A stretch of 50,208 nt of DNA from Deltaproteobacteria bacterium (GTDB lineage Bacteria; Myxococcota_A; Polyangia; Polyangiales; Houyiibacteriaceae). Position 1 is the first letter of the stretch. Every line of letters starts with the position of its first letter. The stretch covers positions 1-50,208 of the forward strand of contig JAFDAJ010000006.1 of NCBI GenBank assembly GCA_019313915.1, in the 5' to 3' direction. The position numbers and the translations under genes are program-made. The notes beneath the pieces are model-generated. The model was not told the origin of the DNA and searched no databases. It saw only the letters and a list, made by a program, of their open reading frames with translations. This document shows, in pieces, positions 3,678 through 44,591 of the stretch.

Positions 3678-3833
3678 TCAGCGCTTGCGCGGCCTTTGGT
3701 ACATCAGCACTCGGCGTTCGAGCGGGCCTTCGCCACGCTTCGTGATCAGATCCGCCAAGATCAACCGCGCCACGAATGTCCGCGGTTGAGCCAGCAGGGT
3801 GCCTAGCGGCAAGGGCTTAGATTGGGCCTTCAT
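3678..3833 (-). CDS. Possible 51-residue basic protein in flotillin operon
   Basis: A small frame starting with ATG inside the last codons of floA (17-base overlap) and stopping 6 bases before the metalloprotease start. The product ([17 protein letters not shown]...) is basic, has no membrane segment and matches no family I know. It fills an otherwise empty 145-base gap, and its stop sits just upstream of the next ATG, as expected for translational coupling. Against it: there is no clear ribosome binding site of its own and the composition is not distinctive. It may only be a chance frame. Confidence 0.35.
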
Positions 3834-4803
3834 CGTCCGAGCCGCCGGTTGACTTACTGATCGAATCGCGCATCTCGGTGTCCGCTGCCACGTTGCGGAG
3901 GTTGTAGTAGTCAATGACGCCGAGGTTGCCTTCCTTGAGCGCGTCGGCCATCGCCGCGGGGATCTGGGCTTCGGCCTCGACCAGCTTGGCGCGCATGTCC
4001 TCTACCTTGGCGCGCATCTCTTGCTCGAGGGCAACCGCGAGCGCACGTCGCCCCTCGGCGCGGGCCTGAGCGACCTGTTTGTCCGCTTCTGCTTGCTCGG
4101 TCATCAATTTAGCACCGATGTTGGTGCCGACATCGACGTCGGCGATATCGATGGAAAGAATGTTGAACGCCGTGCCACTGTCCAATCCACGCGAGAGCAC
4201 GTTCTTGGAGATAGCGTCCGGGTTTTCGAGAACCTCGGCATAGTTTGACGCCGAGCCGATCGTGGAGACGATGCCTTCGCCGACGCGTGCGACGACGGTT
4301 TCCTCGGTGGCGCCACCGACCAGCCGGTCGATGTTGGACCGAACGGTAATTCGTGTGACGACCAGGAGCTGAATGCCGTCCTTTGCGACGGCAGTGATCT
4401 TGGGTGTCGTGATGACTCTGGGGTTGACGCTGGTCTGCACAGCTTCGAGGACGTCACGTCCGGCAAGGTCGATTGCCGCCGCTTGCTGGAAGTCCAACTG
4501 GATGCCCGCCTTGTCCGCGCTGATCAGCGCAGTGACCACCCGCTCGACGTTACCCCCAGCAAGGTAGTGAGACTCCAGCGTGTTCGTCGCAACCTCGCGG
4601 CCGGCCTTCACCGCGGCGATGCGAGGGTTGACGACAGCGCTCGGCGACACGCGCCGCAAGCGCATGCCGATCAGCTCACCAAAGCCGACCTTCGCTCCGC
4701 TCGACCACGCCGCGATCCAGAGCCTGACCGGGATCAACCAGACCAACAGGACGAAGAGGATGATGATGAGGACAAAAATCAGTGCAGCTGGTGCGAGGGA
4801 CAT
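3817..4803 (-). CDS. floA: Flotillin-like protein FloA
   Basis: A 328-residue member of the FloA (YqfA, UPF0365) family, which scaffolds ordered membrane microdomains in bacteria. The N-terminal hydrophobic segment (about residues 5-27) anchors it in the membrane. It is followed by the SPFH-like region ([35 protein letters not shown]) and a C-terminal Ala/Glu/Arg-rich coiled coil (about 225-290). The end ([19 protein letters not shown]) is typical of FloA. Length is as expected (about 330). The ATG follows a good ribosome binding site (GGAAGGAAG). The short nfeD gene ends 12 bases upstream, so these genes form one operon, the usual flotillin-NfeD pairing. Confidence 0.95.
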
Positions 4804-4815
4804 GGGACTTCCTTC

Positions 4816-5286
4816 CTAGGTTGCATCGGGGATGCGCACGACGACGCGCGGCCCTTCGACGGACATGACTTCGACTTCCTGGTTGCTGTCGACGTATTCC
4901 CCTTCGGTCATCACGTCGACTTCGTCCGATCCAAAGCGGACCCGTCCGATGGGCCGGAGCGGGGTGACAGTGACTCCTCGGCGCCCGAGGAGATCGCTCC
5001 GATCTTCTTGGGCGATTGCCTCTGCCTGGCTGTGCTCGAGGACCATCTTCCGTCCGAGGCGGCTCTTTGGCAACCAGTACAACATCGCGCCGGCGGTCAG
5101 GACCGAAGCGCCGCCAACCACGCCGCCCCAGAGGGGCCCAAGCTCTGTCCACGCGGCGATCGCCCCCGCCGCGAGCGCCAGCAAACCCAGGGCGCCGGCG
5201 ACGCCGAAGCCGGGGATGACCGCCACTTCGGTGAAGACCAGCACAAGCCCGAGCACGAGGACGACGATGATGACGGCTATGGTCAC
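4816..5286 (-). CDS. Short NfeD-family membrane protein
   Basis: A 156-residue protein with hydrophobic segments over about the first 65 residues (IAVIIVVLVLGLVLVFTEVA and two more), then a soluble C-terminal NfeD domain, an OB-fold (LLGRRGVTVTPLRPIGRVRF, YVDSNQEVEV). Short NfeD proteins lack the protease domain and partner flotillins; they are thought to regulate or localise them. The start is GTG, overlapping the TGA of the long nfeD gene by 4 bases (GTGA), with a strong GGAGGA ribosome binding site. This implies tight translational coupling. FloA follows after 12 bases. Confidence 0.9.
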   Translation of the reverse strand: MTIAVIIVVLVLGLVLVFTEVAVIPGFGVAGALGLLALAAGAIAAWTELGPLWGGVVGGASVLTAGAMLYWLPKSRLGRKMVLEHSQAEAIAQEDRSDLLGRRGVTVTPLRPIGRVRFGSDEVDVMTEGEYVDSNQEVEVMSVEGPRVVVRIPDAT

Positions 5287-6752
5287 GCGTCCTCCTCGGA
5301 GCGCACGACGAGGGCCGGTCCCTCTGTGCCGATCACCCGGACACGCGACCCGCGAGCAATGAACTCACGTTCACTGGTCGCTTCGTGACGTTCTCCGTCG
5401 ATGATGATCTTTCCGGCGGGCCGCAGGTCCGTCAGCGCTTCCCCGTTTTTTCCCACGAGGTCGGACGCGCTCGGCGCGGAGAGAAAGCCCGTTTCGGCGT
5501 CTTCCAACACCAAGGCCCTGCCCATCGCGGTCCGCGACAGCAGGCGCATGAACACCAGGGCCAGGACGAACGCCCCGAGCAGCGAGAGCAAGACACGGGT
5601 CATCGCGTCCGCGAGCACACCGGTCTTGAACGAGACGTCGATTGGGATGCCGATCAACGCGAGCACCAACGCGGCGATGACGAAGATCAGGCCGAGCACG
5701 CCAGGCACGCCAAGCCCTGGCACGAAAAAGATCTCGACCACGACGAGAACGACGCCGGTCAGGAATAGCAATGCTTCCTCCCACCCGACGAGGTGCACGA
5801 CCGCGTGGCCGCCAAAGAACAGCGCGAGTGCGATGAAGCCGACTAGCGTGAAGCCGCCGACGCTTCGCGTGTAGAACGCGACCATCAGGCCGAGCATCCC
5901 GACCGAAAGCAGCAACCCGCTCACCGTGGGCTCGGTCAGCCAGCGCGCGATCTTCTCGCCCCAGTTGAGCTCTGACTCTACGATCTCGGGGTCTTCGAGA
6001 TTGAGGAGCTGCATCACCGCGTCGAGATCTGCGGCCTGTCCGTCGGCCATGCCCATTTTGATGGCTTGGCCGGTGTCGAGCGTGAGCAGTTTGCCAGCTT
6101 CAACGATGCCATCGATGACGACCTCGGCATCGACCATGGCCTCCGCGATGTCCCCGCGCCTGCCGTTGGCTTCGGCGGTCGTGCGCATCTCGGCGCGCAT
6201 GTACGACACCATCTTCTCGCCCACTGCTTCGGCTTGGCCGCCCGGTGCGGCCTGGACTGGAGTAACCGCGCCGATCGTCGCGCCTGCGGTCATGAGCACG
6301 TTGTCACACGCGAGACTGATCAATGCGCCCGCGCTGATCGCGCGCGGGTGAATGAATGCGACTGTACGGGGCTCGGCTTCGAGCAATGCGTCGCGAATCT
6401 GGATCGCAGCGTCGACGCGCCCACCGAGCGTGTTGACCTCGATCACGATCGCCGCTGCATCGGGGTTGGTCTCGATCGCGCGGCGGACGAATGCTGCAAG
6501 GCCGAGTTCGACGGTGCGGTCGATCGCGATGACGACGACCTTGCTCCCAGGAGGCGCGTCGATCGGAAGGGCTTGCACGTCGCCTTCCACGTTCGCGCTG
6601 GGCGCCGGCCGATAGCCGGAACCAGCGTCGGCCTCGTCTGCCGGACCGGCCTTCTGGCCGAAGGTCACCTGCGCGGTGCAAAGGAATACACTGGCGATCA
6701 GAAAGCCGCGGAAGCTCAATCGCGGGTAATTGGCCCACCTCACGCGATGCAA
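5283..6752 (-). CDS. nfeD: Long NfeD, ClpP-class membrane serine protease
   Basis: A 489-residue long NfeD (NfeD1b/YqeZ-like) protein. A signal segment (about 12-31) is followed by a ClpP-class serine protease domain (about 70-240). The oxyanion Gly-Gly lies in VNTLGGRVDAA, the likely nucleophile is S140 in RAISAGALIS, and the likely catalytic Lys is K180 in GEKMVSYMRAEMR. The 40-residue spacing agrees with the Ser-Lys dyad of the characterised archaeal homologue PH1510. Four or so membrane helices (about 265-410) and a C-terminal OB-fold NfeD domain follow. The start is taken as TTG at 6752, preceded by GGGAG at good distance; GTG at 6743 is the alternative. The upstream acyl-CoA dehydrogenase stop is one base away, so the two may share a transcript. 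Confidence 0.92.
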   Translation of the reverse strand: MHRVRWANYPRLSFRGFLIASVFLCTAQVTFGQKAGPADEADAGSGYRPAPSANVEGDVQALPIDAPPGSKVVVIAIDRTVELGLAAFVRRAIETNPDAAAIVIEVNTLGGRVDAAIQIRDALLEAEPRTVAFIHPRAISAGALISLACDNVLMTAGATIGAVTPVQAAPGGQAEAVGEKMVSYMRAEMRTTAEANGRRGDIAEAMVDAEVVIDGIVEAGKLLTLDTGQAIKMGMADGQAADLDAVMQLLNLEDPEIVESELNWGEKIARWLTEPTVSGLLLSVGMLGLMVAFYTRSVGGFTLVGFIALALFFGGHAVVHLVGWEEALLFLTGVVLVVVEIFFVPGLGVPGVLGLIFVIAALVLALIGIPIDVSFKTGVLADAMTRVLLSLLGAFVLALVFMRLLSRTAMGRALVLEDAETGFLSAPSASDLVGKNGEALTDLRPAGKIIIDGERHEATSEREFIARGSRVRVIGTEGPALVVRSEEDA

Positions 6753-6753
6753 C

Positions 6754-7965
6754 CTAGCTCCCTTGGGACCCTAGCTCAATGCCGTACTTCTTGAGAATCG
6801 CGCGCGCGAGGGCGGACTTGTGCACCTCGTCCGGCCCGTCGTAGATCCGCGCGGCCCTTTCGTGGCGAAAGAACCACGCCAGAGGGGTGTCGTCGGTCAT
6901 ACCGAGGCCGCCATGCACCTGAATCGCCCGGTCGACCACTTGCTGCAGAATCCCAGCGACCAGGAATTTGATTGCCGAGATCTCGCTGCGGGCTGCCCGG
7001 GTCCCCTCGCGATCGATTTTCCAAGCTGCTTGGTAGACCATTAACCGTCCGGAATCGATCTCGGCGCGGCTCTCGGCGATCCAATGTTGTATGGCCTGCT
7101 GTGCCCCGAGCGGGCGTTTTGGCGCCACCATGCGTCGCGAGGCGCGCTCGCACATCAGATCGAAGGACCGTTCGCAAATCCCGAGCCATCGCATGCAGTG
7201 GTGGATTCGCCCGGGGCCGAGGCGCTCCTGGGCGATCGAAAAACCAAAGCCCTCCTGTCCGAGCAAGTTCTCGACGGGGACTCTGCAGTCTTCGTATGCG
7301 ATCTCCGAGTGACTTTGCCAGCCGTATCCAACATCGCCCATGATCGAGAGGCGCCGGATGTGGTGGAAGCCGGGGTTCTCGGTCGGGACGATGATCTGGC
7401 TGGCGCGCATATGGGGTGGCGCGTCCGGATTGGTGACCGCCATGACGATCGCGAAATCGGCGAGGTGCCCTCCCGTGGTGAACCACTTGCGCCCGTTGAT
7501 GACGTAATCGTCACCGTCGCGAACGGCGGTGGTGTCCATCCAGGTCGGGTTGGAGCCGGCTCGATCCGGTTCGGTCATCGAGAAGCAGCTCCGGATTTCT
7601 CCGGCAGCCAATGGCTGGAGCCAGCGCGCCTTCTGCGGTTCGGTTCCGAACCTGTGGAGGATCTCCATGTTGCCCGCGTCTGGGGCCTGGCACCCGAAGA
7701 CGTAGTGACCCATGGGGCTCCGGCCGAGCGTTTCGCTCATGTGCGCGTGCGGGAGGAAACCGAGGCCCATCCCGCCGTACTCGGTCGGCATCTGTGGAGC
7801 CCAGAGGCCTGCGGCTTTGCACTTCTCGCGCGCATCGTTCGCGGCGGGCAAGACCTCTTCGAACGACTGACGCGCCGCCGCTTCGAGCGGATACACCTCG
7901 GCTTCCATGAACTCACGGGCTCTGCGCAAAAGGTCTTCGAGCTCGGGCGGTGTACTGAAGTCCAT
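6754..7965 (-). CDS. ACAD10/11-type acyl-CoA dehydrogenase
   Basis: A 403-residue acyl-CoA dehydrogenase starting at MDFSTPPELE, just after a GGAGG site; the frame continues upstream for 79 codons, but that part overlaps the promoter region and is not family-like. Features seen: FAD/acyl-CoA motif CFSMTEPDRAGSNP, RLGPGRIHHCMRW near 249-260, QVHGGLGMTDD, and IYDGPDEVH near 374-382. The position of the usual catalytic Glu (YEG in medium-chain enzymes) is Asp (D376), a mark of human ACAD10/ACAD11 and bacterial LvaC-like proteins. From family knowledge these act on 4-phosphorylated acyl-CoA in 4-hydroxy acid breakdown. The divergent neighbour at 8026 resembles the kinase half of ACAD11, which supports that role here (inference). 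Confidence 0.9.
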   Translation of the reverse strand: MDFSTPPELEDLLRRAREFMEAEVYPLEAAARQSFEEVLPAANDAREKCKAAGLWAPQMPTEYGGMGLGFLPHAHMSETLGRSPMGHYVFGCQAPDAGNMEILHRFGTEPQKARWLQPLAAGEIRSCFSMTEPDRAGSNPTWMDTTAVRDGDDYVINGRKWFTTGGHLADFAIVMAVTNPDAPPHMRASQIIVPTENPGFHHIRRLSIMGDVGYGWQSHSEIAYEDCRVPVENLLGQEGFGFSIAQERLGPGRIHHCMRWLGICERSFDLMCERASRRMVAPKRPLGAQQAIQHWIAESRAEIDSGRLMVYQAAWKIDREGTRAARSEISAIKFLVAGILQQVVDRAIQVHGGLGMTDDTPLAWFFRHERAARIYDGPDEVHKSALARAILKKYGIELGSQGS

Positions 7966-8025
7966 CGATAGCCTCCGGATTGGGCAGAGCATGATAAGCT
8001 CCGCACCTTCTGAAAGCGAGGACGT

Positions 8026-9078
8026 ATGCCGCCGGTGCCCCCAAAAAATTCTGGCCCCGTTCGAGAGGCGCATCGCTTCGATGAAGCACGACTCGATGAC
8101 TGGATGGCGGGCCATGTCGATGGGTACACGGGCGCGCTTCAGGTTTGTCAGTTCAAGGGCGGGCAATCCAATCCCACCTATTGGCTTGCCGACCGCGAGC
8201 ATCAGTACGTCTTGCGCAAGAAGCCGCCCGGCAAGCTCTTACCCTCGGCGCATGCGGTCGACCGTGAATACCGCGTGATGCGCGCGCTTGGCGATACCGA
8301 CGTGCCCACCGCGATCATGTATGCGCTCTGCGAAGACGACTCGGTCATCGGCACCCCCTTCTTCGTCATGGAGTACGTTGAGGGGCGCATCTTCTGGAAC
8401 GTGCAGCTTCCCGATCTCGCGGCGGACGAGCGCCCCGCGATCTACGAGGAGCTTACCCGCGTGTTGGCCGCGATTCACAATGTCGATCTCGCGGCGGTGG
8501 GCTTATCGGACTTCGGGCGACCTGATGCCTACGTTGCGCGGCAAGTGAAGCGGTGGACCAAGCAGTACCTCGCCTCTCAGACCACGGACGTGGAGCAGAT
8601 GAAGACTCTGATCGACTGGATGCCCGCCAACATTCCCGACGACGAGGCGACGACGCTGGTGCACGGTGACTATCGGCTGGACAACTTGATCTTCCATCCG
8701 ACCGAGCCCCGAGCCCTCGCGGTCATCGACTGGGAGCTCTCGACGCTCGGCCACCCGCTTTCGGACTTGGCGTACACCTGCATGCTGTACGACGTGACGC
8801 TTCCAAAGCTCGGTGGACTGGCGGGCGTCGACTTCCAAGCCACGGGCATCCCTACCGAGGACGCCTTCGTCGCGCGATACTGCGAGTTGGTCGGTCGCGA
8901 CGGTGTGCCCGACCTCAGCTACTACAAGGCGTTCTCGCTTTTTCGCCTCGCGGCGATCGCGCAAGGCGTGTACAAGCGGAGCCTAGACGGCAACGCCAGC
9001 TCTCCGGAGGCGTCGATGTTTGGAGCGGCGGTGCCCCACTTCGCGGATATCGCGTGTAGGCTGGCAGGAATCGGGTAG
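8026..9078 (+). CDS. ACAD11-type phosphotransferase (APH fold) kinase
   Basis: A 350-residue aminoglycoside-phosphotransferase-fold protein. It shows GGQSNPTYWL, YVLRKKPPGKLLPSAH with the probable ATP-binding Lys, the Brenner loop HGDYRLDN (213-220) and metal-binding VIDWELST (D235), then IGHPLSDLA-like LGHPLSDLAY. This closely resembles the N-terminal kinase domain of mammalian ACAD11 and, more distantly, bacterial LvaA, which phosphorylates 4-hydroxyacyl-CoA. It is not an antibiotic resistance gene. It is divergent from the matching dehydrogenase, with 60 bases between starts, which probably hold both promoters. A Dabb-domain gene follows after 4 bases. Confidence 0.9.
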   Translation: MPPVPPKNSGPVREAHRFDEARLDDWMAGHVDGYTGALQVCQFKGGQSNPTYWLADREHQYVLRKKPPGKLLPSAHAVDREYRVMRALGDTDVPTAIMYALCEDDSVIGTPFFVMEYVEGRIFWNVQLPDLAADERPAIYEELTRVLAAIHNVDLAAVGLSDFGRPDAYVARQVKRWTKQYLASQTTDVEQMKTLIDWMPANIPDDEATTLVHGDYRLDNLIFHPTEPRALAVIDWELSTLGHPLSDLAYTCMLYDVTLPKLGGLAGVDFQATGIPTEDAFVARYCELVGRDGVPDLSYYKAFSLFRLAAIAQGVYKRSLDGNASSPEASMFGAAVPHFADIACRLAGIG

Positions 9079-9082
9079 GGCG

Positions 9083-9388
9083 ATGATCGAACGAATTGTG
9101 TTGTTCAAGTTGAAAGACGAATACTGCAACGACGCCGCGCGCGCCGAGTTTGCGGAGCGAACGAGAGCCGACCTCAGCGCCCTCCAAGACGTCCGCGGCG
9201 TCACCGTAGGCGTCCCCGCCGACGAGGCCTCCGAGCAGAGCTGGGACATCAGCATCGTTGCCCGCTTCGACTCCATGGACGACATGCAGAACTACATGGT
9301 CGACCCTGCCCACCGGTCCTACGTCGACAACTACGCAACCCCCCGCATACAAGTCCGCAAAGCCTGGAACTTCAGGGTGGTCGCATAG
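9083..9388 (+). CDS. Dabb-family (stress-responsive A/B barrel) protein
   Basis: A 101-residue protein made of one dimeric alpha/beta-barrel (Dabb) domain: MIERIVLFKLK at the start, WDISIVARFDSMDDMQNYM in the middle, and HRSYVDN towards the end. Dabb proteins are small dimers of mixed or unknown function; some are cyclases or plant stress proteins. The ATG lies 4 bases after the kinase stop, so it is probably co-transcribed and perhaps coupled with the kinase. In the Pseudomonas levulinate operon the kinase LvaA needs a small partner, LvaB. Whether this unrelated small protein plays such a part is speculation. purB follows after 33 bases. Confidence 0.85.
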   Translation: MIERIVLFKLKDEYCNDAARAEFAERTRADLSALQDVRGVTVGVPADEASEQSWDISIVARFDSMDDMQNYMVDPAHRSYVDNYATPRIQVRKAWNFRVVA

Positions 9389-42243: not shown

Positions 42244-43422
42244 ATGGACCTGACGTTCAGCGAGGAAGAAGAGGCATTTCGGCAGGAAGTTCGCGCCTGG
42301 ATTCCGGAGGCGATGCCCGAGGAGATGCGCGAGAAGGCGCGCGGAGCAGGCGGGTTCACCCCCGAAGATTCCGCGACGTGGCACCGCATTCTCCACGAGA
42401 AGGGCTGGGCTGCGCCGCACTGGCCGAAGGAAGTTGGTGGCACCGGTTGGGACGCCGCGCGGCGTTTCATTTTCAACGAGGAAATGGAGCTGGCCGGTGC
42501 CCCGCAGCTTTCGGTATTTGGTTTGTCGATGGTCGCTCCCCTGATCATCAGCTTTGGCACCGACGCCCAGAAGAAGCGATTCCTCCCGAAGATCCTCAGC
42601 GGCGAGGAATTTTGGTGTCAGGGCTATTCGGAGCCGGGCTCCGGAAGCGATCTCGCGTCGCTGCGCACGACGGCCGAGGATGCGGGTGACCATTTCATCG
42701 TCAATGGCCAGAAAACGTGGACGTCCTACGCGCAATACGCCGACTGGGTGTTTTGCCTCGTGCGCACGGATCAGTCCGTGAAGAAGCAAGCCGGGATCAC
42801 GTTCCTCTTGATCGACCTCAAGAGCCCCGGTGTCGAGGTCAAGCCCATGTTGACGCTCGGACACACGCCGGCGTTCTGCGATACCTTCTTCGACAACGTG
42901 AAAGTGCCGAAGGAGAACGTGGTTGGTGGCATCAATCAAGGCTGGACGATGGCCAAGGCTCTCTTGGGCCACGAGCGAACGTTGCTTGCGATGATCGGTC
43001 CCTCGCGAAACGTCCTCCAAAAGGTGAAGCGCATCGCGGCGAGCAAGACCGTCAATGGACGGCCGATGCTCGAGGATCCGTTGTGGCGCGCGAAGATCGC
43101 ACGGCTCGAGATGCGGTTCCGCGCGCACACGATGGTGAGCTATCGGGCGCTGGCCGACCAGCAGAAGGGTAAGATGCCCGGGCCCGAGTCTTCGATCCTG
43201 AAAGTAGTCGGGACCAAGCTCATCCAAGAGCTCACCGAGCTTGCGATGGAGGTCATGGGTGAGAGCTCTCTCACTTGGTACAACGAAGGCCTTTGTCCTC
43301 CGGTCGAGGAATCGATCGGCCCCTACTTCTGCTACGAACGAGCCGCCACGATTTACGGTGGCTCGAACGAGATTCAACGCAACGTCATCGCGAAGATGAT
43401 TCTCCAGCTGCCGAGCAGCTGA
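42244..43422 (+). CDS. Acyl-CoA dehydrogenase (FadE26/28-like, catalytic partner)
   Basis: A 392-residue acyl-CoA dehydrogenase. Seen: WPKEVGGTGWDAARR, CQGYSEPGSGSDLASLRTTA, VNGQKTWTSYAQYAD, and the end IYGGSNEIQRNVIAKMIL. The usual late catalytic Glu is replaced by Gly (YGG), while E244 in LLGHERT lies where isovaleryl-CoA-type enzymes and mycobacterial FadE26-like subunits have their base. With the adjacent, degenerate partner it likely forms an alpha2beta2 enzyme, as known for steroid side-chain ACADs of mycobacteria. Substrate not determined. Confidence 0.92.
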   Translation: MDLTFSEEEEAFRQEVRAWIPEAMPEEMREKARGAGGFTPEDSATWHRILHEKGWAAPHWPKEVGGTGWDAARRFIFNEEMELAGAPQLSVFGLSMVAPLIISFGTDAQKKRFLPKILSGEEFWCQGYSEPGSGSDLASLRTTAEDAGDHFIVNGQKTWTSYAQYADWVFCLVRTDQSVKKQAGITFLLIDLKSPGVEVKPMLTLGHTPAFCDTFFDNVKVPKENVVGGINQGWTMAKALLGHERTLLAMIGPSRNVLQKVKRIAASKTVNGRPMLEDPLWRAKIARLEMRFRAHTMVSYRALADQQKGKMPGPESSILKVVGTKLIQELTELAMEVMGESSLTWYNEGLCPPVEESIGPYFCYERAATIYGGSNEIQRNVIAKMILQLPSS

Positions 43423-43454
43423 ACGGCGAAACGGACTTAGGAGTATTTCGACCC

Positions 43455-44591
43455 ATGGATTTCGAGCTCGATCAAGATCAACAAATGCTTGCCAAGACGG
43501 TGGGCGATTTCGCCAAGAACGAATCGCCCGTCGCTCGGTTTCGCCAGCTTCGTGACACCGATATCGGGTACGAGCCCGCAGCGTGGCGCAAGATGGGCGA
43601 GCTCGGGTGGATGGGTGTTCCGTTCGCCGAGTCCGTCGGTGGCTTCGGCGGAAGTTTCGTCGAGTGCGCACTCATTATCGAGAACCTCGCCAGCACCCTC
43701 GTTCCGGAGCCCTATCTTGCTTCGGTCGTGCTCGGTGGGATGACGCTGGCGCGAGCCGGCAACGCCGCACAGCATGAGGCGTACCTGACTCCGATGATCG
43801 AGGGCGAGACCACCTTGGCTCTGGCGTACTCGGAGGCTCAGAGCCGGCATGACGTGAGCTCAGTCGAGACGACTGCAACCCCGAACGGCAGCGGCTACAA
43901 GCTTTCCGGCGAGAAAGTCTGGGTGCTCAACGGGCATCACGCCGATCACCTGATCGTCTCGGCGAAAGCACCCGGCGGCGTGACGCTCTTCGTCGTGCCG
44001 CGCGATGCGGACGGTGTGAACGTGATGGTGGCGAAAACGATCGACGGTCAGAAGGCGGCCTTCATCCGATTCGAAGACGTCACGGTCGATGGGGACTCTC
44101 GCCTGGGCGAGGAAGGCTCAGGAGCCGCCGTGCTCGACCGCACCATGGACTACGCCGCTGCGGCAGCGGTTGCGGAGGGCGTCGGGATCACAACGACGAT
44201 GCTTCGCATGACCGTCGACTATCTCGGCACCCGTGAACAGTTTGGTGTGAAGATCGGGTCGTTCCAAGCGCTCCAACACCGTGCGGTCGACATGTACGCC
44301 GAGACCGAGCTTCTTCGCTCGATTTCTATCGCGTCGATGGTTCGTGCCGACGAAGACGACACCCGCACACGGCGCGCTGACATCTCCGCCGCGAAGTACC
44401 AGTTGGCGACCGGAGGGATTTGGGTCGCCCAGCAGTCGTTACAACTGCACGGTGGCATTGGGGCGACCGACGAGCACGACATCGGGCTCTACTTCAAGCG
44501 GATGTACGCGCTCAACGCGCTCTTCGGCGACCAGGAGCACCATGTGGCTCGGTTCGCAAGCGACCCGACGTTTGCTGAAGTGGCTGTCTAA
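43455..44591 (+). CDS. Acyl-CoA dehydrogenase-like partner subunit
   Basis: A 378-residue ACAD starting at MDFELDQDQQM after TAGGAG; the frame upstream belongs to the previous gene read out of frame. Seen: YSEAQSRHDVSSVETTATP in place of the usual FAD motif, LSGEKVWVLNGHHADHLIV, RMTVDYLGTREQFGVKIGSF, LHGGIGATDEHDIGLYFKRM and LFGDQEHHVARFA. Both catalytic-base positions lack Glu, as in non-catalytic beta subunits of heterotetrameric ACADs. It follows the first subunit by 32 bases on the same strand. Confidence 0.9.
   Translation: MDFELDQDQQMLAKTVGDFAKNESPVARFRQLRDTDIGYEPAAWRKMGELGWMGVPFAESVGGFGGSFVECALIIENLASTLVPEPYLASVVLGGMTLARAGNAAQHEAYLTPMIEGETTLALAYSEAQSRHDVSSVETTATPNGSGYKLSGEKVWVLNGHHADHLIVSAKAPGGVTLFVVPRDADGVNVMVAKTIDGQKAAFIRFEDVTVDGDSRLGEEGSGAAVLDRTMDYAAAAAVAEGVGITTTMLRMTVDYLGTREQFGVKIGSFQALQHRAVDMYAETELLRSISIASMVRADEDDTRTRRADISAAKYQLATGGIWVAQQSLQLHGGIGATDEHDIGLYFKRMYALNALFGDQEHHVARFASDPTFAEVAV

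Follow-up and report, generated by a model that had tools for sequence, protein, structure and literature searches.

A head-to-head pair of ACAD11-related kinase and acyl-CoA dehydrogenase genes in one bacterial family, and repeated loss of the dehydrogenase

Two adjacent, divergent genes in the DNA analysed here (the window, 50,208 nucleotides from a Deltaproteobacteria bacterium of the Houyiibacteriaceae) encode a phosphotransferase-type kinase and an acyl-CoA dehydrogenase (ACAD) that are best explained, with a probability of roughly 60%, as successive enzymes of 4-hydroxyacyl-CoA conversion, paired within one bacterial family, of which the dehydrogenase has become dispensable in many close relatives. 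Within this explanation we infer the substrate, the chemistry, the cooperation of the two enzymes and the backup by paralogues; the genes with their motifs, their places in the trees and their arrangement, the losses and the purifying selection were observed directly. The features concerned are collected in Table 1.

Table 1. Features of the gene pair and its immediate surroundings, in window positions
Feature	Position	Strand	Details
ACAD 3'-end element	6751..6783	-	last 10 codons (GIELGSQGS, stop) plus 3 bp
ACAD of the ACAD10/11-LvaC group, sister clade II	6754..7965	-	403 aa; R248, H256, R259, predicted phosphate pocket; D376, predicted base
Divergent intergenic region	7966..8025	.	60 bp
ACAD11/3dxp-type (clade kI) kinase, putatively of 4-hydroxyacyl-CoA	8026..9078	+	350 aa; D215 (HGD), N220, E81, R172, D235
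Dabb (A/B barrel) protein	9083..9388	+	101 aa; starts 4 bp past the kinase stop

Both reading frames are intact, that of the ACAD running from an ATG at 7965, and the genes lie head to head across a gap that measures 60 bp in six same-genus genomes. Alignment of the six shows conservation of both ribosome-binding regions and of a central TATCATGC element within the gap, and the ACAD start at 7965 is conserved in them together with its ribosome-binding site; a start at 8202, which would give a protein of 482 aa, overlaps the kinase and was discarded, relatives favouring 7965. Chance similarity is ruled out by the Pfam matches of the ACAD (Acyl-CoA_dh_1/N/M, E 4e-39) and the kinase (APH, E 1e-55); an NCBIfam search of the pair gave sub-cut-off matches only. 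Both genes are under purifying selection: five pairs of ACAD sequences gave dN/dS values of 0.05-0.09, and nine pairs of kinase sequences 0.05-0.11. The reading frames, coordinates and motifs quoted in a first-pass annotation were all recovered, as was the divergent order of the genes. The resemblance that it had noted to both domains of ACAD11 is borne out by phmmer scores against the mouse protein of 299 bits (ACAD) and 287 bits (kinase), D376 corresponding to mouse D753.

The pair's neighbours in the window are nfeD genes, the Dabb gene, purB and purC. The ACAD is immediately followed on its own strand by nfeD1b, nfeD and a third gene, which we take to be flotillin-like, at 3817-6752. In most stretches from the genus (L143-L149, L023, L024, L029) the Dabb gene adjoins the kinase; it is missing from G007 and G017, where purB directly follows the kinase, and in L150 and L151 a relative lies at a distance of some kb from the pair. 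No evidence was found for equating the Dabb gene with LvaB, the small partner of LvaA. None of the neighbours that were scanned with Pfam looked like an acyl-CoA synthetase. Two more ACADs in the window (42403-44552) show weak similarity, of 25-26% identity, to P0001.

The two proteins are about equally similar to mouse ACAD11 (41% identity for the ACAD, 42% for the kinase). Compared with solved structures, the ACAD scored highest against 4hr3 (305 bits), ACAD11 (299-304) and the mutant 8v3v (297), the next structure reaching 184; for the kinase the best scores were those of 3dxp (398 bits), ACAD11 (283-287) and 9o56 (181). Quick trees were built from 116 ACAD and 92 kinase rows and careful trees from 38 rows each, LvaA, LvaC and ACAD10 not being among the rows. 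In these trees mouse ACAD11, 4hr3, plasmid relatives and three paralogues from the window's own genome form one ACAD clade (I; support 100/100), and the window ACAD falls with the great majority of its close matches in a sister clade (II). The branch that sets the window ACAD outside clade I has support of 100/100, and a grouping of the window's family with clade I is rejected in the careful tree (AU p 0.013). The kinases likewise split, into kI, which includes the window kinase, 3dxp and ACAD11, and kII, which includes 9o56 and the partners of clade II ACADs (99/99 in the careful tree, 99 SH-aLRT in the quick tree). Kinship with ACAD11, proposed earlier for both genes, thus holds for the kinase, which groups with the ACAD11 kinase and 3dxp (99/99); for the dehydrogenase simple orthology has to be given up, as it lies outside the ACAD11 clade and three further ACADs encoded in its genome stand nearer to ACAD11.

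Several inner forks of the trees are without resolution. The careful ACAD tree does not recover the window's family as a single clade (4% of bootstrap trees), which leaves it unproven that the head-to-head pair arose only once; in the quick tree the family's 15 rows stand together (98). An AU test of the window kinase with kII (p 0.215) was set aside as uninformative on kII membership, since what it effectively tests is whether the remaining kI rows group together as a clade. A third, distant and long-branched kinase-ACAD pair, kinase first and with HCMR and the Asp present, was encountered on a plasmid of Rhodococcus sp. ZPP (L163).

Among the genomes compared, the head-to-head arrangement of a clade II ACAD with an ACAD11-type kinase was seen in one bacterial family only. 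A pattern search matched 594 genome stretches, of which 592 were confirmed. In the best 80 of these 592, a clade II ACAD is followed by a co-directional kII kinase in 56 and diverges from a kI kinase in 3; the other 21 have no kinase in the stretch, some stretches being short. For two of the three divergent loci, L060 and L070, the records seem identical to those of the relatives G008 and G031. An adjacent divergent pair is found in 14 of 57 relatives (G000, G001, G003, G008, G009, G012, G021, G022, G023, G025, G026, G029, G030, G031), which represent six genera, all of the window's family. The kinase and the ACAD are 1.8 kb apart in G019 and on different contigs in G028 and G032; separate contigs also carry the two enzyme types in G034 and G053, from the same order. 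Across 143 genomes of the phylum, hand-read counts of pairs within 2.5 kb, which are lower bounds, give at least 4 divergent (all in the window's family), at least 17 co-directional and at least 2 convergent pairs (G127, G095). The nfeD and purB flanks of the window's genus are absent from the four other-genus stretches that were read (L150, L151, L152, L159) while the pair stays, and thus its adjacency outlasts its neighbours. Mixing of the branches is not unique to this family, since clade I ACADs are co-directional with kI kinases in Sphingobium (L160), Burkholderia (L161), Azoarcus (L164) and L176, and are paired with kII in Deinococcus (L165). When any such kinase and any such ACAD are counted, the 57 relatives comprise 39 genomes with both, 2 with the kinase only, 6 with the ACAD only and 10 with neither (Fisher p 1e-5; E thresholds 1e-30 for the kinase and 1e-60 for the ACAD), and the 143 phylum genomes 63, 1, 16 and 63, respectively (p 4e-24; 1e-45 and 1e-60), kinship being ignored in both tests.

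Of the 19 genomes of the window's genus, 16 encode the kinase; six of these encode this ACAD too, and the other ten have lost it. The fixed two-gene route that had been envisaged at first is at odds with this distribution: as the kinase persists without the ACAD in 10 of 16 genomes, the two are not obligate partners. At least five changes are needed on the kinase gene tree, three of them forced by well-supported branches. In all ten ACAD-less genomes about 33 bp from the ACAD 3' end survive, with substitutions, as a remnant between the kinase and nfeD (in G010 the contig breaks off early in nfeD). G007 also keeps the ribosome-binding region of the ACAD and, in mutated form, its last 21 codons; in G018 a start codon stands in frame with the last nine ACAD codons, making a 19-codon reading frame, and in G016 similar DNA is out of frame. 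A YGLELGS-like C-terminus in ACADs of other genera (L038 and L042, with a similar one in L046) indicates that the remnant is true ACAD sequence.

By ungapped comparison the mean identity of the remnant among the ten genomes is 87.5%, as against 35% in the 30 bp towards the kinase and 62-69% in the direction of nfeD. A 21-bp core occurs once each in the same-genus genomes that have it (16 of 19), except for G017, which has two kinase copies and two cores; a reversed control gave 0. The three same-genus genomes without the core lack nfeD and the kinase as well. A search for nfeD in six genomes without the element or without adjacency (G004, G011, G014, G019, G028, G032) found none, which for G004, G011 and G014 implies that the whole region is lacking or unassembled. 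The ACAD 3' end probably carries expression signals of the nfeD operon. A hand-read TTGAGC-17-TAGGTT promoter within it was rejected as proof, being unlisted in a promoter scan, with a ribosome-binding site equally possible.

The kinase stays under purifying selection where the ACAD has gone, its dN/dS being 0.050-0.105 in 6 ACAD-less pairs versus 0.052-0.102 in 3 pairs with the ACAD, although many dS values are high. The window's genome also encodes the three clade I paralogues (contigs C88, C99 and C1), which carry HCMR or HAMR with the Asp and are 53-58% identical to ACAD11, so that ACAD11-like reactions in this organism need not hinge on the divergent pair. At least one clade I-like paralogue (E<=1e-60) is found in 9 of the 10 ACAD-less genomes, the tenth, G017, being 85% complete. 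Another ACAD may thus serve as the kinase's partner where the adjacent one is lost, and the dehydrogenase is probably dispensable because ACAD11-like paralogues can perform the same step. The same facts lend some credit to a different, though distinctly less probable, division of labour, wherein a real 4-hydroxyacyl-CoA kinase has an ACAD11-like paralogue elsewhere as its main partner, and the ACAD next to it plays an accessory part, on a different chain length or stereoisomer. Retention of the paralogue and unchanged constraint on the kinase fit this scheme, as do the kI kinases that are co-directional with ACAD11-clade ACADs in L160, L161, L164 and L176. It sits less well with the persistence of the adjacency over six genera despite different flanks, and with the phosphotransferase that the C99 paralogue has alongside it. 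That locus (L140; contig C99, 1210-5300) encodes on one strand a TetR protein, an SDR, the ACAD (HAMR), the phosphotransferase, which is outside kI and kII, and a DUF6285 protein. The last is possibly LvaB-like; a literature search on DUF6285 found no paper.

Support for the reading of the pair as successive 4-hydroxyacyl-CoA enzymes comes from the active sites. In mouse ACAD11, R626, H634 and R637 are described as contacts of the 4-phosphate and D753 as the base, from mutation and modelling, and the phosphate-pocket residues as tested by mutation in ACAD10/11 (PMC12440821). The equivalents in the window ACAD are R248, H256, R259 and D376, and as mouse R631 and H597 are matched also, all six positions checked agree. 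The four residues recur in an HCMR or HAMR context in 76 of the 78 rows scored (L060-L139; 74 HCMR, 2 HAMR), the remaining two presumably being unrelated ACADs (L093_6711, L103_3301). The Asp in place of the catalytic Glu, first taken for a divergent trait, is a hallmark of the ACAD10/11-LvaC group, ACAD10/11 and LvaC being reported to share it (PMC12440821). The kinase has the HGD Asp (D215), the loop Asn (N220), the alphaC Arg-Glu (R80/E81), the DxE site (D235) and R172 as the equivalent of R176; that of the published R86 is placed only approximately, the mouse mapping there being two positions off.

With the phosphate-pocket residues of ACAD11, the catalytic Asp and the main kinase residues all present, and with the kinase in the ACAD11 clade, conversion of 4-hydroxyacyl-CoA by phosphorylation and then phosphate elimination is the best inference. 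The kinase would transfer phosphate from ATP to the 4-hydroxyl of 4-hydroxyacyl-CoA by means of D215. In the FAD-dependent ACAD, D376 would take the C2 proton while R248, H256 and R259 hold the phosphate, whose expulsion would leave a 2-enoyl-CoA for beta-oxidation with no net oxidation. The pair, which would have been assembled in one bacterial family from an ACAD11-branch kinase and a sister-branch dehydrogenase, probably lets the cell burn 4-hydroxy fatty acids. That the ACAD is an ordinary alpha,beta-dehydrogenase, incidentally adjacent to a kinase with some other substrate, is improbable: both superfamilies are broad and the function of the ACAD is a prediction from sequence, but the three pocket residues and the Asp, present throughout the clade, are absent from eight ordinary ACADs of the window's genome (L013-L020), and the kinase and ACAD co-occur strongly. 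It is more improbable still that the kinase phosphorylates another CoA-bound or free alcohol, away from C4, with the pair acting on a hydroxy acid that is related yet different, for although APH-type kinases are catalytically diverse, with several weak matches here, and chain length and position are unreadable from sequence, this kinase lies inside the clade of the ACAD11 kinase, which is reported to need a CoA ester (PMC12440821).

The 4-hydroxy acid route is already known, and the arrangement and partner combination are a lineage-specific variant of it. The head-to-head cross-branch pairing and the repeated dehydrogenase loss in close relatives seem new to the literature, our searches of which found nothing on bacterial clades of these enzymes or on a head-to-head pair. 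Work on ACAD10/11 is recent (2024-2025), and the bacterial side has been described mainly via the levulinate operon. The window's family shows at least two old dehydrogenase branches and at least two kinase branches that can be re-paired, and natural genomes with the kinase kept and the dehydrogenase deleted make the choice of partner directly testable. At about even odds, we suggest a modular catabolism, in which kinases and dehydrogenases of two old branches swap partners, were re-paired here as a head-to-head unit, and then suffered several ACAD deletions that left the last nine codons as signals of the nfeD operon and the kinase working with another ACAD.

Mammalian ACAD10 and ACAD11 (PDB 8v3u, 8v3v, 2wbi) are like the window pair in their two domains and tested active-site residues, and their kinase is of the same clade. 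Mammalian ACAD11 joins kinase and ACAD in one chain, whereas the window has two genes on opposite strands and an ACAD, 41% identical, of the sister clade. Since in bacteria the two are described as normally separate genes, as with LvaA/LvaC and a Burkholderia pseudomallei pair (PMC11342911), nothing here is "split"; the "divergent" of the initial label stands. LvaA and LvaC of the Pseudomonas putida levulinate operon are, like the window proteins, a separate kinase and ACAD, LvaC having the catalytic Asp (PMC12440821). Their reported identity to ACAD10/11 is 29% for LvaA and 56-62% for LvaC (PMC11342911), against 42% and 41% for the window kinase and ACAD, so that neither window protein looks like a direct orthologue. 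The lva genes stand together with a synthetase, LvaB and LvaD in one operon (PMC6692424), unlike the divergent pair among its nfeD, Dabb, purB and purC neighbours. The Burkholderia pseudomallei kinase and ACAD (Q63VL0/Q63VL1), likened to the window pair by their published description, replace the ACAD10 domains in vitro (PMC11342911). At the Burkholderia arboris locus L161 a kinase of the window's branch is co-directional with an ACAD11-clade ACAD. In co-directional loci such as L063, L079 and L108 the ACAD is of clade II, 57-68% identical to the window's and with the same motifs, whereas its 9o56-type kinase, downstream on the same strand, is of the other clade and 29-40% identical to the kinase of the head-to-head pair.
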